DNA from: Streptomyces sp. Je 1-332
GTDB lineage: Bacteria > Actinomycetota > Actinomycetes > Streptomycetales > Streptomycetaceae
Assembly: GCF_040730185.1 (NCBI RefSeq)
Contig: NZ_CP160402.1
Coordinates: forward strand, 1,426,001-1,490,000
DNA length: 64,000 nt
Direction: 5' to 3'
Shown here: positions 1,352 to 19,827 of the stretch, piece after piece
Position numbering within the stretch: the first letter of the stretch is position 1
Layout: the number at the start of each line of letters is the position of its first letter
Made by a program: the position numbers and the translations under genes
Notes under the pieces: model-generated
Databases searched by the model: none
What the model was told of the DNA's origin: nothing
Seen by the model: the letters and a program-made list of their open reading frames with translations, nothing else

Positions 1352-2282
1352 GACAGCACAGGATAGCGCTACTCGCCCGAGCCGGATAGCGGTTCCCGCA
1401 GCCGCGGAGATCCCGCAGGACAGCTCCCGCCGCGCAGGCACCGTCATGGCCGCGCTCGGCGTCACCGCCTTCTCGCTCACCTTTCCCTCCACCGCCTGGG
1501 GCCTGGAGGGCATCGGCCCCTGGTCGTTCGTGGCCCTGCGCGTCGTACTGAGCGCGGTCATCGCGGGCGGCGCCCTGCTCGCCCTGCGCGTCCCGCTGCC
1601 CGCACGCCGCCACTGGGCCGGGCTCGCCGTCGTCGCCGCCGGGGTCGTCGTCGGCTTCCCGCTGCTCACCACGCTCGCCCTGCAGACGTCCACCACCGCC
1701 CACGCGGCCGTGGTCGTCGGCCTGCTCCCGCTGACCACCGCCGTGTTCTCGGCGCTGCGCACCGGGGCACGGCCCTCGCGGACGTTCTGGACCGCGGCCC
1801 TCGCCGGCGCGGCGGCGGTGATCGCGTTCACGGTCCAGCAGAGCGGCGGCGCCCTGTCGACCGCCGACCTGTACCTCTTCGCCTCGCTCCTCATCTGCGC
1901 CGCCGGCTACACGGAGGGTGGCCGTCTCGCGCGCGAGATGCCGGGCTGGCAGGTCATCGGCTGGGCGCTGGTCCTGTGCCTGCCGCTCGCCGTGGCGGGG
2001 GCCGCCTTCGCCCTCCAGTACGAGTCCTTCCAGCTCACCGGGCACAGCACGGCGGGGCTGCTCTACGCGGCCATCGGCTCGCAGTTCCTCGGCCTGGTCG
2101 TCTGGTACCGCGGCATGGCGGCGATCGGCGTGCCCAAGGCCAGCCAGCTCCAGCTCGCGCAGCCGCTGCTCACGCTGGTCTGGTCGGTGTTCCTGCTCGG
2201 CGAGCACCTCACGATCGCCGCACCGCTGACCGCCGCCGCCGTCCTCGTGTGCATCGCGGTCACGCAACGGGCCCGCGGCTAG
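1350..2282 (+). CDS. EamA/DMT-family transporter
   Basis: The 310-residue protein is almost wholly hydrophobic, with about ten predicted membrane helices arranged as two EamA halves. The second half carries the typical end segment QLQLAQPLLTLVWSVFLLGE. Members of this family export amino acids or related metabolites through the cytoplasmic membrane. The first 32 residues form a polar tail, and an in-frame ATG at 1447 is an alternative start. I chose 1350 because TACTAT lies 5 nt upstream, which suits a leaderless transcript. The gene is head-to-head with a MocR regulator that probably controls it. The substrate is unknown. Confidence 0.88.
   Translation: MTAQDSATRPSRIAVPAAAEIPQDSSRRAGTVMAALGVTAFSLTFPSTAWGLEGIGPWSFVALRVVLSAVIAGGALLALRVPLPARRHWAGLAVVAAGVVVGFPLLTTLALQTSTTAHAAVVVGLLPLTTAVFSALRTGARPSRTFWTAALAGAAAVIAFTVQQSGGALSTADLYLFASLLICAAGYTEGGRLAREMPGWQVIGWALVLCLPLAVAGAAFALQYESFQLTGHSTAGLLYAAIGSQFLGLVVWYRGMAAIGVPKASQLQLAQPLLTLVWSVFLLGEHLTIAAPLTAAAVLVCIAVTQRARG
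1361..1391. promoter_or_regulatory. Candidate operator: direct repeat GGATAGCG inside the exporter 5' end
   Basis: GGATAGCG occurs at 1361-1368 and again at 1384-1391, 23 bp apart. The related string CTACTATC lies at 1339-1346, around the overlapping start codons. MocR proteins bind spaced repeats at divergent promoters, so these are candidate sites. No binding evidence is available. Confidence 0.35.
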
Positions 2283-2373
2283 ACGCCGACGGCCGGGCCC
2301 CAGGTCCGGCCACCGGACGTAGACTGACGGCCACGGAAAGCAACCGCAGGGTGGGACGAGGAGGTCGCTCCAG

Positions 2374-2568
2374 ATGCGTGCAACCGTAGGCGACGAGCTG
2401 GTGCTGCACGGCAGGACCGTCGGGCAGCACGACCGGATCGCACAGGTCGTCGAGGTGCTCGGCGCGAACGGCGGTCCGCCGTATCGCGTCCGCTTCGACG
2501 ACGGCCACGAGACGCTGCTGTCACCGGGCCCCGACACCGTCGTACGGCATCAGGACCCGGCTTCCTGA
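2374..2568 (+). CDS. DUF1918 domain protein, 64 aa
   Basis: This small acidic protein has the pattern typical of DUF1918: an N-terminal MRATVGDELV strand, then a GGPPYRVRFDDGHE core and a segment ending LLSPGPDTVV. Such SH3-like barrels are common and of unknown function in actinobacteria. A purine-rich stretch (GGACGAGGAGG) precedes the ATG. The gene is solitary, with GHL10 hydrolase converging on it 18 bp downstream. Confidence 0.85.
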   Translation: MRATVGDELVLHGRTVGQHDRIAQVVEVLGANGGPPYRVRFDDGHETLLSPGPDTVVRHQDPAS

Positions 2569-2586
2569 CTCCGGGCGCGGGACCGG

Positions 2587-3819
2587 TCAGCGGGGTGGCT
2601 CGGCCGGCTTTCGGTAGTGGTCGGCGACCACCCGCGCCATCGCGCCGATCTTGTCCACGCCCACTTCCTTCGCCGAGAAGTACACATGGCCGCGCGCCTG
2701 CGGGAACTTCTTGGCGTACGTGAGGTGGCGGGACAGCTCGGCGGGGTCCTGCCAGGGGGCGGCCTGCGCGGGGTCGCCCGCCTTGTAGAGGGCCTCCCCC
2801 ACATACAGCCGCACGCCCGTGCCCTCGACGACGTCGGCCCACCAGGGCAGCAGCTTGCCGTAGTCCGCGGCGGCGAAGCCGATGTTCCAGTAGAGCTGCG
2901 GGCAGATGTAGTCGAGCCAGCCCTTCTTGACCCAGCCGCGGGTGTCGGCGTACAGATCGTCGTACGTCTGCACGCCCGCCCGGGTGTCCGAACCGAGCGG
3001 ATCGGTCGAGGCGTTGCGCCAGACCCCGAACGGACTGACCCCGAACTGCACGCGCTTACGCGCCTTCTTGATCCGCGTCCCCATCTCGCGCACCAGGCGG
3101 TCGATGTTGTCGCGCCGCCAGGCGGCACGGTCCGGGAAGCCGCCGCCGTGGAGCGCGAAGGCCTCGTCGTCGTCGAAGACCTGCCCGGCGACCGGGTACG
3201 GGTAGAAGTAGTCGTCCCAGTGCACCGCGTCGATCGCGTAGTGGCGCACGGCGTCGAGCATCGCGTCCTGGACGAAGCGCCGCACCTCGGGCAGACCGGG
3301 GTTGTAGTAGAGCTTCCCGCCGTAGGGCACGACCCACTCGGGGTGCAGCCGCGCGGGGTGCGTCGGGACGAGGCGCGAGGGGTCCGTGTGGTTGGCGATG
3401 CGGAAGGGGTTGAACCAGGCGTGCAGTTCGAGGCCCCTGCTGTGCGCCTCGGCCACGGCCGTGCCCAGCGGGTCCCAGCCGGGGTGCTTGCCCTGCACGC
3501 CGGTGAGGCACTCCGCCCACGGTTCGTACGGCGACGGCCACAACGCGTCGGCGGTGGGCCGCACTTGGAAGACCACGGCGTTCAGCCGGCGCCGTACGGC
3601 CGTGTCGAGATGGGCGATCAGTTCGGCGCGCTGCTCGGCCGCCGGCAGTCCGGGCTTCGAGGGCCAGTCGCGGTTGACGACGGTCGCCAGCCACATGCCC
3701 CGCAGTTCCCGGCGCGAGGGGGCCTTCCCGGGCACCGCCGCCGCGTCCCCCGCGGCTGTGAGCCCCGCCACCATCGCGGCTGCCGCAATCGTGAAACCTC
3801 GGCGTGACATACGCCTCAT
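2587..3819 (-). CDS. Tat-exported glycoside hydrolase-like 10 (GHL10/DUF187) protein
   Basis: About 410 residues. The N-terminus MRRMSRRGFTIAAAAM has a twin-arginine motif and a hydrophobic run ending near AAA-VPG, so export by Tat is likely. The mature part is a GHL10-type TIM barrel: RGMWLATVVNRDWPS is the first strand, AIDAVHWDDYFYPYP a central one and LDYICPQLYWN a late one. The family is related to YngK of Bacillus and is thought to act on cell-wall or extracellular glycans. Its substrates are poorly defined. The chosen start is preceded by AGGGGGCGAGCGG. An in-frame ATG at 3810 would also keep the Tat motif. The tat genes themselves lie at the other end of this window. Confidence 0.88.
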   Translation of the reverse strand: MRRMSRRGFTIAAAAMVAGLTAAGDAAAVPGKAPSRRELRGMWLATVVNRDWPSKPGLPAAEQRAELIAHLDTAVRRRLNAVVFQVRPTADALWPSPYEPWAECLTGVQGKHPGWDPLGTAVAEAHSRGLELHAWFNPFRIANHTDPSRLVPTHPARLHPEWVVPYGGKLYYNPGLPEVRRFVQDAMLDAVRHYAIDAVHWDDYFYPYPVAGQVFDDDEAFALHGGGFPDRAAWRRDNIDRLVREMGTRIKKARKRVQFGVSPFGVWRNASTDPLGSDTRAGVQTYDDLYADTRGWVKKGWLDYICPQLYWNIGFAAADYGKLLPWWADVVEGTGVRLYVGEALYKAGDPAQAAPWQDPAELSRHLTYAKKFPQARGHVYFSAKEVGVDKIGAMARVVADHYRKPAEPPR

Positions 3820-3986
3820 CCGCTCGCCCCCTGGCCTGTATATCCGCCGGAACCGCTGCTTGTACCGGACAGCATGCCCGACCCGGCACGTCACGCACCT
3901 GAGGTTCGGCGGTAACGTTCACCGCTGGGGCAGACACCGCATCCATACGGGGGACTGCCCGCCCGTTGATCAGCGAAAGGCACGAG

Positions 3987-17970: not shown

Positions 17971-18066
17971 GACGCCGACCCTATCGAGCGCGCCGTCACC
18001 CCCATCGACCGGTTCCGCTCGAGGCTGCCGCCAACCGCGCCGGGGGGGGTGCCTCTATGTCTTTCG

Positions 18067-19269
18067 TCAAGCGAGGCGTGGGGTTCTGGGTTCGTAGAAG
18101 GTGCCGTCGCGGAGCATTGCAAACAGCACGTTGATCCGTTGTCGGGCGAGGCGGAGGAGCGCTTGGGTGTGGGTTTTTCCTCTGGCCCGGCATTTGTCGT
18201 AATAGGTGCGGGAGGCAGGATCGTGCAGGGCAGCGAACGCGGACAGGAACATCGCGCGTTTGAGCTGCCGGTTGCCGCCCCGTGGGGCGTGTTCGCCGTG
18301 GATCGAGGTCCCGGAGGACTTGGTGGTGGGGGCGAGGCCGGCGTAGGAGGCGAGGTGGGCGGCGGTGGGGAAGCTGGTGCCGTCGCCGACGGTGACCAGC
18401 AGTGCGGCGGCGGTCCTGACGCCGACGCCGGGCAGCGACGTCAGGACCTTGGAAAGAGGGTGGTCCTCCAGCAGGGCTGCGATCTGGGATTCTGCCGCCC
18501 GTCGTTGCTCGTGAACGGCGCCGAGCGAGCGGGCCAGCGAGGGGATCACGATGTCCAGGGTGCCGGTGCCCGGGACCACGACGGTCTGCTCGTCGAGTGC
18601 ATCGAAGACGTCGTCGGTCAGCCGTTTTGCCATGCGCGGGGCTTTGGGCCGGACCACCTCAACCAGCCTGCGGCGTCCGGCTCTTCGCAGCGCGGCTGGG
18701 GATCCGTAGCGTTCCAGCAGCCAGGTGACCGCCGGGTGATCCAGACGCGGGCCCAGGACCCGTTCCAGGGACGGGTGGAACTGGGTGAGCAGGCCCCGGA
18801 TCCGGTTGGATGTGCGGGTGGCCTCGGCCGCCAGGTCCTGGTCGAAGCCGACGAGGACGGTGAGCTCGGCGGTGATCTCGTCGGTCAGCTGAAGCGAGCG
18901 AAGGGTGTGCGGCATGGTGCGGGCGGCGTCCGCGATGACGGCCGCGTCGCGGGCATCGGTCTTTGCCTCGCCCGGGTAGAGGTCAGCGATCCGTCGCATC
19001 GAAAGGCCCGGCAGGTAGGCGACCTGGCAGCCCGTGTCGCGGGCCACTGTCAGCGGCAGAGCGCCGATCGAGGCCGGCTGGTCCACGACGACCAGGACGG
19101 TGCCGAACTTCTCGCGGAGCTTGTCGAAGACCTGCCGCAGCTTCGGTTCGGTGTTGGGCAGTTGCTTGTCGAAGACTTTCTTGCCGGCCGGGGTGAGTCC
19201 GTGTCCGTGGTGAGCGCTCTTCCCCACGTCCAGGCCCAGGAAGACACCTATCTCGTCGTACTCGTTCAA
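18067..19269 (-). CDS. IS110-family transposase (bridge-type recombinase)
   Basis: The 400-residue protein has an N-terminal RuvC-like DEDD domain: D14 (FLGLDVGKSAHHGHG), D63 (VVVDQPASIG), and D105/D108 (EAKTDARDAAVIADAART). A coiled-coil middle follows. The C-terminal Transposase_20 domain (LTSLPGVGVRTAAALLVTV, then YAGLAPTTKSSGTSIHG) contains the serine expected to attack DNA. The reading frame is intact. The second acidic position is Asp where IS621 has Glu, a variation to check. The start is TTG at 19269 with GGAGG seven bases upstream. Homology begins there. Confidence 0.93.
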   Translation of the reverse strand: MNEYDEIGVFLGLDVGKSAHHGHGLTPAGKKVFDKQLPNTEPKLRQVFDKLREKFGTVLVVVDQPASIGALPLTVARDTGCQVAYLPGLSMRRIADLYPGEAKTDARDAAVIADAARTMPHTLRSLQLTDEITAELTVLVGFDQDLAAEATRTSNRIRGLLTQFHPSLERVLGPRLDHPAVTWLLERYGSPAALRRAGRRRLVEVVRPKAPRMAKRLTDDVFDALDEQTVVVPGTGTLDIVIPSLARSLGAVHEQRRAAESQIAALLEDHPLSKVLTSLPGVGVRTAAALLVTVGDGTSFPTAAHLASYAGLAPTTKSSGTSIHGEHAPRGGNRQLKRAMFLSAFAALHDPASRTYYDKCRARGKTHTQALLRLARQRINVLFAMLRDGTFYEPRTPRLA

Positions 19270-19424
19270 ACCGTCCTCCCGAACGGACGTTGTGCGTGCT
19301 GGCCTGGGCGTTGGCGTCGTGCGCGCATCCACGTTATGCAGACCTGCCGCCTGCGAAGGACCGGGCATTGCGCTCGGCCGGGCGGTAGTCGGACCTCTCA
19401 TCAGCGTCTCCAACGGCGCCTCTC

Positions 19425-19487
19425 GGGCCCGGTGGCACCACCCCCCAGGTCATCGCTTCGACAGGGGGGACCAGCCATGCCGGGCCC
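19425..19487 (-). ncRNA. Candidate bridge RNA segment of the IS110 element
   Basis: A 63-base imperfect hairpin: GGGCCCGG at the outer arm pairs with CCGGGCCC. Inner GGC/GCC and CCCCCC/GGGGGG segments are separated by internal loops around a GTCATCGCTTCGAC apex. IS110 elements transcribe a structured guide RNA from this end, with internal loops matching target and donor. The C6 and G6 tracts could pair with the G run at the insertion site. Transcription and exact ends are not known. Confidence 0.5.
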
Positions 19488-19529
19488 GGAGGCCAGCGGC
19501 CCTCTTGCAGGACCGCGGAAAACATAACG

Positions 19530-19827
19530 GGGGGGAGCCCGCCGCTACCCGGCCGCCAGCCGACCCGCGAGGCTGCCGTCGCTCCCGTCCGCCACGGCCC
19601 GGTGCCGGCCGAGGCTTCTCGCCGCCCGCACCCGGGGGGAGCCCGCCGCCACCCAGCCGCCAGCCGGCCCGCGAGGCAGCCGTCGCTCCCGTCCGCCACG
19701 GCCCGGTGCCGGCCGAGGCTTCCTGCCGCCCGCGCCGGGGGGAGAGGCCCCCGCCACCCGGCCCCAGTCGGCCCGAGAGCCGCCGTCGCTCTCGTTCGCT
19801 TCGGGTGCGGCCCCCGCTGCCCCAGCC
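19530..19827. repeat. GC-rich tandem repeat, period 103-104 bp, about 2.9 copies
   Basis: Units begin with a G run then AG at about 19,536, 19,640 and 19,743. Units 1 and 2 are nearly identical (shared core CGTCGCTCCCGTCCGCCACG), and unit 3 is degenerate. A partial unit appears to lie on the far side of the IS at about 18,020-18,050. The array is between the mycosin stop and the SseB gene and is not coding. Confidence 0.8.

Follow-up and report, generated by a model that had tools for sequence, protein, structure and literature searches.

A 64-kb stretch of DNA (here called the window) carries at positions 18050 to 19529 an insertion sequence of the IS110 group which very likely (we put the probability at about 0.9) encodes a bridge RNA in its left end, whose guides would direct insertion into a run of about six cytosines at a two-base core. 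Comparison of sequences among copies and relatives establishes the ends of the element, its target preference, the RNA structure, and the covariation of the guides with both target and donor DNA. The element and all its features described below lie on the reverse strand of the window.

Recombinase gene and extent of the element

The recombinase gene (18067 to 19269, stop included) starts with TTG and encodes 400 amino acids. The ORF contains the two domains by which the IS110 family is recognized, the DEDD RuvC-like domain PF01548 (E value, 9.8e-50) and PF02371 (E value, 4.9e-22), and this intact reading frame bears out the IS110 element of the first-pass annotation. It also matches the model NF033542, "IS110 family RNA-guided transposase," with 234.9 bits, above the cutoff. 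In a profile alignment, whose N-terminal match is weak, and a comparison of 14 homologues, D10 is nearly invariant (at least 90%), and D101, D104, and S315 are invariant. The catalytic residues of IS621 are D11, E60, D102, D105, and S241; S315 was equated with S241 by visual inspection, the numbering of the PDB chain being shifted by two residues, and the position of E60 appears to be occupied by an invariant Asp (D59) rather than Glu.

The element proper runs from CG-TTATG to AGAGGCA, as defined by the common ends of seven genome copies and by empty sites of relatives. Its noncoding ends measure 260 nt on the 5' side versus 17 nt on the 3' side, in keeping with the long and short ends noticed in the first pass, and the flanking G runs reported there are a G8 run at 18042 to 18049 (right flank of the insertion) and a G6 run at 19530 to 19535 (left flank), both also seen in the comparison of copies. 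The ends had been placed at 18047 and 19535; an element is indeed there, but its exact ends are 18050 and 19529, and the discrepancy is confined to the G runs. According to excerpts of PMC11187229, adjacent duplications in early IS110 entries reflect wrongly set ends; because those duplications came from misplaced ends, we set the register by empty sites, namely those of the relatives L054 and L312/L314.

Seven full copies, this one and six near-identical ones, are present on the same chromosome (one contig of 8.27 Mb). They are 100% identical in one comparison, and one is at 99.8% over the gene in another. With both ends read in element orientation, C-run junctions are found in 7/7 copies, with left runs of 6 to 8 Cs ahead of GTTATG and right runs of 6 to 9 Cs behind AGAGGCA. 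Since the rest of the 64-kb window holds just 17 C or G runs of at least six, junctions in such runs at all seven copies are not due to chance. The copies share their ends apart from the run itself, and no copy with ends elsewhere was seen. The proposal that the element targets G-rich streptomycete repeats through the tracts of a hairpin survives in part: the C6 and G6 tracts of the hairpin match the C run at the junction, but the target is a short C run and not a streptomycete repeat as such. Some target C runs do fall in repeats, e.g., a CRISPR repeat in L249. By eye, the DNA adjoining the element (19540 to 19780) consists of tandem repeat units of about 100 bp with a G6 run in each, and the insertion seems to be placed at the border of one such unit.

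A long left end, a short right end, and RNA structure in the left end, upstream of the gene, are the features of the IS110 group. In the IS1111 group, the RNA lies in a long right end, whereas the right end here is 17 nt; the region has 70 inverted pairs, and none of the 25 longest joins the two element ends in the manner of the subterminal inverted repeats (7 to 17 bp) of the IS1111 type. On sequence grounds, the element belongs to the IS110 group and is IS621-like by architecture, RNA location, guide strand rules, loops, and handshake.

Conserved RNA structure in the left end

Eighteen left ends, picked from 155 candidates for less than 90% likeness by the measure of our script, were aligned over the bridge RNA region (19320 to 19528), and their consensus fold comprises a 5' stem-loop, the long stem of the target loop, which carries a distal hairpin, and a donor portion. 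The structure submitted to testing was named from this consensus fold with two guide pairs omitted; 97.5% of its cells are paired, 16/38 pairs show double changes, and 0/500 shuffles match any of five structure measures. Pairing falls to 34 to 48% when the partners are slid by 1 to 3 columns, a control that favors the tested structure, as the latter was derived from the same alignment. The 5' stem-loop (19498 to 19514; helix 2) has 98.1% of its cells paired and double changes in 5/6 pairs. Helix 1, made of the start of the left end and the right donor guide, more probably reflects the match of guide to donor than a stem within the RNA.

A 63-base hairpin with C6 and G6 tracts had been singled out at 19425 to 19487. 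It is present, contains helices 4 and 5, and is conserved with compensatory changes in the 18 left ends. Its folding energy alone is not above chance (z = -0.68; 52/200 shuffles of a 68-nt piece fold as well), and for 266 nt of the 5' end the figure is 11/200. It is the alignment of relatives, not energy, that proves the hairpin, which, as far as sequence can tell, is exactly the target-binding loop of the bridge RNA. The same comparison (0/500 shuffles) upholds the guide RNA proposed for the long end, and a lack of conserved structure was not seen. The two loops covary with target and donor, respectively, as is characteristic of a bridge RNA. An Rfam scan around the element gave nothing above the family threshold and a single match below it.

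Covariation of the target guides with insertion sites

Within the target-binding loop, the left target guide (GGUCCCCCC, 19464 to 19472) is homologous in position to that of IS621, and its C tract matches the C run left of the copies. The right target guide (CCUGGGG, with core-pairing GG and handshake UG) lies at 19439 to 19449 and is identified by covariation with the right flank at 145 sites and by natural guide switches. These are the distinct sites with a readable right guide and right flank among 243 gene matches; left out were 44 matches with no readable right end, 32 with no readable target loop, 14 duplicates, 7 at contig ends, and 1 (L070) off the guide pattern. Two of the 145 sites (L163 and L285) are dimers, in which the next copy serves as the right flank.

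Guide and flank were compared over the five bases behind the first flank base. Base pairing between the right guide and the right flank of the same copy occurs at 710/725 positions, versus a mean of 658 and a maximum of 675 for permuted guide-flank pairings (0/5,000 as high), a permutation that overstates independence, since copies and relatives share descent, several share a genome, and 130/145 guides are poly-C. Pairing covers five positions at 132 sites, four at 11, and three at 2. Perfect 5-nt pairing is found at 14/14 counted sites of the switched-guide classes (8 CTTTT, 5 GCCCA, and 1 TTTTT). The targets of relatives with switched guides match the guide, reading CC-TTTT, CT-TTTT, CG-CCCA, and CA-CATAAG, and the covariation extends to a single base, an AAAA-GG guide occurring with CC-TTTT and an AAAA-AG guide (L312) with CT-TTTT. 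The guide of L303, which has one G fewer, pairs at four positions. Outside the 145 sites, L070 (guide for CACAAG, flank CATAAG) fits by eye with one G-T wobble, and L055, uncounted as its right end was not read by the script, would pair at 3/5 positions because of an additional G (CG-GCCCA).

At sites with poly-C guides, the right C run (m) is at least six in 102/109 and the left C run (k) at least four in 106/109. Fewer than five Cs follow the first in fourteen poly-C-guide sites, with none at all in L208, and the left guide matches the left flanks of this class through the C tract only. The alignment of guide loops with insertion sites thus gives a match that holds over the 145 sites and the guide switches, and an absence of target match was not seen. 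It is most likely, judging from these sequences, that the RNA guide steers the element into runs of about six cytosines. That the C runs are merely permissive DNA, bent or open, with no role for the RNA, is very improbable: the junctions are homopolymers, as this would have it, but relatives with other guides occupy other sequences, to the base, which already contradicts it.

Donor guides and register of recombination

The left donor half at the right end of the element (RE), CATAGAGGCA (18050 to 18059), is conserved in relatives; the left donor guide, GAGGCGCC (19415 to 19422), pairs with its GAGGCAC with one G-T wobble. The right donor guide, GCAUAACGUGG (19329 to 19339), pairs with the left end (LE), CGTTATG, and covaries with it as GTTAT/GTTAC/ATTAC. 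It is exactly complementary over 5 nt in 150 of the 158 rows whose left end starts with one of these three. Another 46 donor rows with other starts were uncounted; most look like misplaced starts, but there are genuine left ends with a one-base mismatch to the guide among them, L023 (GTAAT) and L014 (GTCAT) at the least.

The copies L054 and L055 of genome G129 sit in an interspersed repeat of about 110 bp, which has at least 40 matches there, query included. The empty repeat L108 reads CCACCC-GCCCACC, and the filled L054 reads CCACCC-element-CGCCCACC. The filled L312 reads TTCGCCCCC-element-CTTTTTAGCC versus TTCGCCCCCTTTTTAGCC in the IS5 transposase gene of L326, and L314 reads TTCGCCCCC-element-CCTTTTAGCC, which is exact if its C and T runs total ten bases, as in L325, L326, and L327. 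Measured against their empty sites, the insertions L054, L312, and L314 show no gain and no loss. The empty sites of L054 and L312 each require that the donor junction be GGCA-CG-TTAC, with a single C, that strands be exchanged where the core begins on its left side, and that nothing be duplicated. The cores are CG in the donor and CC, CT, CG, or CA in the target. In this register, the UG behind the core of the right guide pairs with the donor CA, and position 8 is the last of the left donor guide; the handshake base U of the donor loop faces a C at target position 7, with which it does not pair. The G129 copies speak against a two-C donor with a CC core, and L234 contradicts a donor that always carries six or eight Cs.

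A candidate -35 box, TTGACG (18065 to 18070), whose TTGAC also occurs in relatives, would meet a candidate -10 box of the TANNNT type in LE, TATGTT (19521 to 19526), in the circle only. The spacer between the two would be 18 nt if the circle joins GGCA to CGTTATG, requiring about one C in the circle. No promoter was found in the inserted form of the element.

Extra cytosines at C-run junctions

How many Cs does an insertion leave at its borders? Exact insertion into a target run of t Cs gives t = k + m - 1, and under it the seven copies of this genome would need C12 to C14 targets. An empty site could be inferred for five C-run sites, each on the assumption that the local ancestor had the usual length of its family, and four of the five hold 4 to 7 Cs beyond exact recombination. 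L224 lies in an ATPase gene and has k7/m7 versus an inferred empty C6, a gain of 7, based on (D/E)DPP before the next strand in 118/120 homologues listed (the other two do not show the stretch). L230, in an amidohydrolase gene, likewise has k7/m7 versus C6 and a gain of 7, based on LY(E/Q)PP in 38 of the 44 best-listed homologues, with the other six unmatched by the pattern. L002, in an integrase-core transposase, has k7/m8 versus an inferred C7, again a gain of 7, the 12 bases ahead of the Trp codon (Cys in one) being kept in 9/10 homologous stretches. L242 has k5/m6 versus six bases (CCGCCC) in its 90% orthologue L328, a gain of 4. L234, in a permease gene of the same strain as L224, is exact, with k1/m6, an inferred C6, and a gain of 0, based on a W plus two residues kept in 19/19 readable homologues of 20 listed. 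L224, L230, and L234 were found by eye, having been missed by the coding-frame filter, and coding-frame statistics over many sites recognized too few coding sites. Relatives outside C runs with a known empty site show no gain in 3/3 cases (L054, L312, and L314; L055 was uncounted).

L249 is weak evidence for a gain only, as its sister plasmids that lack the element have different DNA at that spot; its sibling CRISPR repeats have C5, and one in the sister plasmid L253 has C6. Gains are also suggested, but were uncounted, in L042 (a palindrome) and in L012 and L001, where sibling repeat units have C5 or C6. Flank searches for empty sites of L005, L007, and L001 found orthologous flanks with an unalignable junction stretch, and a search of the loci for paralogous empty sites was convincing only for L054, along with a distant sibling for L012. 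The correlation between k and m is 0.34 over 108 sites; within lineages (33 sites in 6 groups) it is 0.21, which is not significant (584/5,000 permutations as high) and did not separate the explanations considered below. This analysis excluded copies in tandem, at contig ends, or with altered right ends, as well as a single run of 34.

The extra Cs could have been carried over from the donor, for which we allow somewhat less than an even chance: excision in a shifted register within the C run would leave several Cs in the circle (GGCA-Cn-GTTATG), which are then added at the next site. Head-to-tail copies do show RE-Cn-LE junctions with n of 4 (L285), 5 (L163), 6 (L164), 8 (L247), and 9 (L162), but a head-to-tail junction need not equal a circle junction. 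The n required is 8 for L224, L230, and L002, 5 for L242, and 1 for L234, and it would therefore differ within one strain (L224 versus L234). Several Cs would also spoil the 18-nt promoter spacing, and the donor guides fit one C.

A tentative explanation is that the run is read twice. One C6 would serve both target guides, its bottom strand pairing with the left guide and its top strand with the right one, exchange would occur at the two edges of the run, and repair would leave the run on both sides, which amounts to a target duplication. To our knowledge, target duplication is not expected for IS110, a family thought to recombine exactly. The sites L224 and L230 hold about the whole run on each side, and the series from C6 to k7/m7 (L224 and L230), from C7 to k7/m8 (L002), and from six bases to k5/m6 (L242) agrees with a double reading, as does the lack of gain at the nonhomopolymer targets of L054, L312, and L314. 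It is at odds with the exact insertion L234 in the same strain as L224, with the weak within-lineage correlation of k and m (0.21), and with IS621, for which excerpts of the literature describe no staggered exchange. That two mutually complementary guides read one six-base homopolymer from both strands, reducing site choice to six bases and duplicating the run by guide overlap, is in our judgment doubtful.

It is improbable that the C runs were long before insertion or grew later by replication slippage, with recombination always exact. C-run length does vary, and L246 and L249 are one insertion differing at the run. However, C12 to C14 would be needed for all seven copies, while other runs of at least 11 Cs occur in two places of the genome only and the other strand has none; in L224, L230, and L002, runs of this length would shift the reading frame, and the lower bounds are sharp, with k at 4 and m at 6.

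Distribution and variation among relatives

A DNA match of some kind was found in 162/199 searched genomes, and 302 relatives were confirmed in the named species collection, 80 of which were kept. Matches also occur in 476 plasmid records (386 of them at 60 to 80% identity) and 9 phage records (8 at 60 to 80%). The right and left ends of many relatives were read by script from the surrounding DNA.

One relative, in plasmid pGBA1 (L249, positions 1380 to 3900; NZ_CP106651), interrupts one repeat of a type I-E CRISPR array adjoining cas2e/cas1e, and the flank with this insertion is common to six plasmid records (pGBA1 and five more). Streptomyces phage TurkishDelight (L248, NC_073473), which has integrase and excise genes, carries a copy; its gp49, annotated as a hypothetical protein, is a family member with a poly-C guide, located in a C run. 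The right flank of L046 (G005) is a run of 34 Cs. The subclade with TTTT right guides comprises L300, L301, L312, L313, L314, L319, L073, L077, and L078; the flanks searched (L314 and L300) are IS5-family transposase genes, and that of L312 is likewise by sequence match.

Several relatives have unusual ends. L034, L064, L073, L078, and L184, which are of different subtypes, share a non-C left flank ending in CTNTCACA ahead of GTTA. The left flank of L184 contains another IS110-type transposase, distinct from the first and oppositely oriented (NF033542, 166 bits), as if another IS110 targeted the left end of this family. L035, L076, L166, and L167 have, in place of the part of the left end upstream of the donor guides, an unrelated sequence that they share, which ends in CAACAAGTCAG in L035 and L076 and whose upstream part is shared by L166/L167. 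L165 (G451) is a copy behind the right end of a different IS110-like element, which likewise terminates in CATAGAGGCACCCCC. In L208, C-GTTATG comes directly after RE and resembles the junction of a one-C circle, but no further left-end sequence follows, and this may be chance. The pairs L049/L050, L027/L065, and L058/L074 have no RE motif near the gene and contain, downstream of the transposase, extra sequence with ORFs alike between genomes, perhaps passenger genes; one ORF of L049 and one of L020 had no NCBIfam match.

Comparison with known systems

The closest likeness is to IS621 (IS110 group, Escherichia coli). Excerpts of PMC11208160 and PMC11208158 describe for IS621 the same recombinase domains, RNA in the left end, and order of 5' stem-loop, target loop, and donor loop; a left guide that reads the bottom strand and a right guide that reads the top strand, core included; and a -35 box in RE with a -10 box in LE, for which the boxes here are candidates. 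The excerpt of PMC11208158 also has the handshake bases adjoining the core, and the UG of the right guide here pairs with the donor CA likewise. The left donor guide ends at position 8 in both. The core of IS621 is CT in donor and target, whereas here it is CG in the donor and CC/CT/CG/CA in the target, so the element falls outside the IS621 subgroup by its core. Unlike IS621, it has a homopolymer target with mutually complementary guides and extra Cs at several junctions. With IS621, ISCro4 (PDB 9t56) is the nearest solved relative by profile and was compared by sequence only.

ISEc21 (IS110 group, seekRNA), as described in excerpts of PMC11187229, also has an upstream noncoding RNA and a linear target in transposase genes of another IS family, into which it inserts without duplication. 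Its targets are IS3-family genes, whereas the CTTTT-guide copies here are in IS5-family transposase genes and the poly-C clade has no gene target. An IS110 insertion without direct repeats in Frankia is described in an excerpt of PMC11946415, and the excerpt of PMC7188733 holds nothing on targets. Within the set of papers searched, 19 of which contain both bridge RNA and IS110, none combines bridge RNA, IS110, and homopolymer, and none combines IS110 family, GGGGG, and Streptomyces. The candidate new bridge-RNA system of the first pass does not amount to a new kind but varies the mechanism of IS110/IS621, and the mechanism as such is not new because the NCBI model already names such proteins RNA-guided.

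Proposed mechanism and implications

We infer that excision as a circle joins RE and LE (GGCA-CG-TTATG) and that this junction would complete a promoter, as in IS621, from which the bridge RNA of the left end would be transcribed. The second loop of the RNA would pair with the circle junction and the first with the target, a run of about six Cs, whose bottom strand would be read by the left guide CCCCCC and whose top strand by the right guide GGGG-GG; the recombinase would then exchange strands at the two-base core (donor CG, target CC). With a homopolymer target, the guides are mutually complementary and could read the same run on both strands, which would leave the register unfixed, and we propose, short of proof, that extra Cs appear on both sides at several C-run insertions because of this.

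The clade represents a natural retargeting experiment, in which the right guide has switched to four or more other targets. In one instance, guide and core changed jointly by a single base, and some of the empty sites are resolved to the base. The clade provides the pairing register for an IS110 subclade with a CG donor core and reveals homopolymer guides in use in nature, at 109 sites counted. For bridge-RNA tools, it raises the question of what the outcome is when both target guides can read the same sequence.
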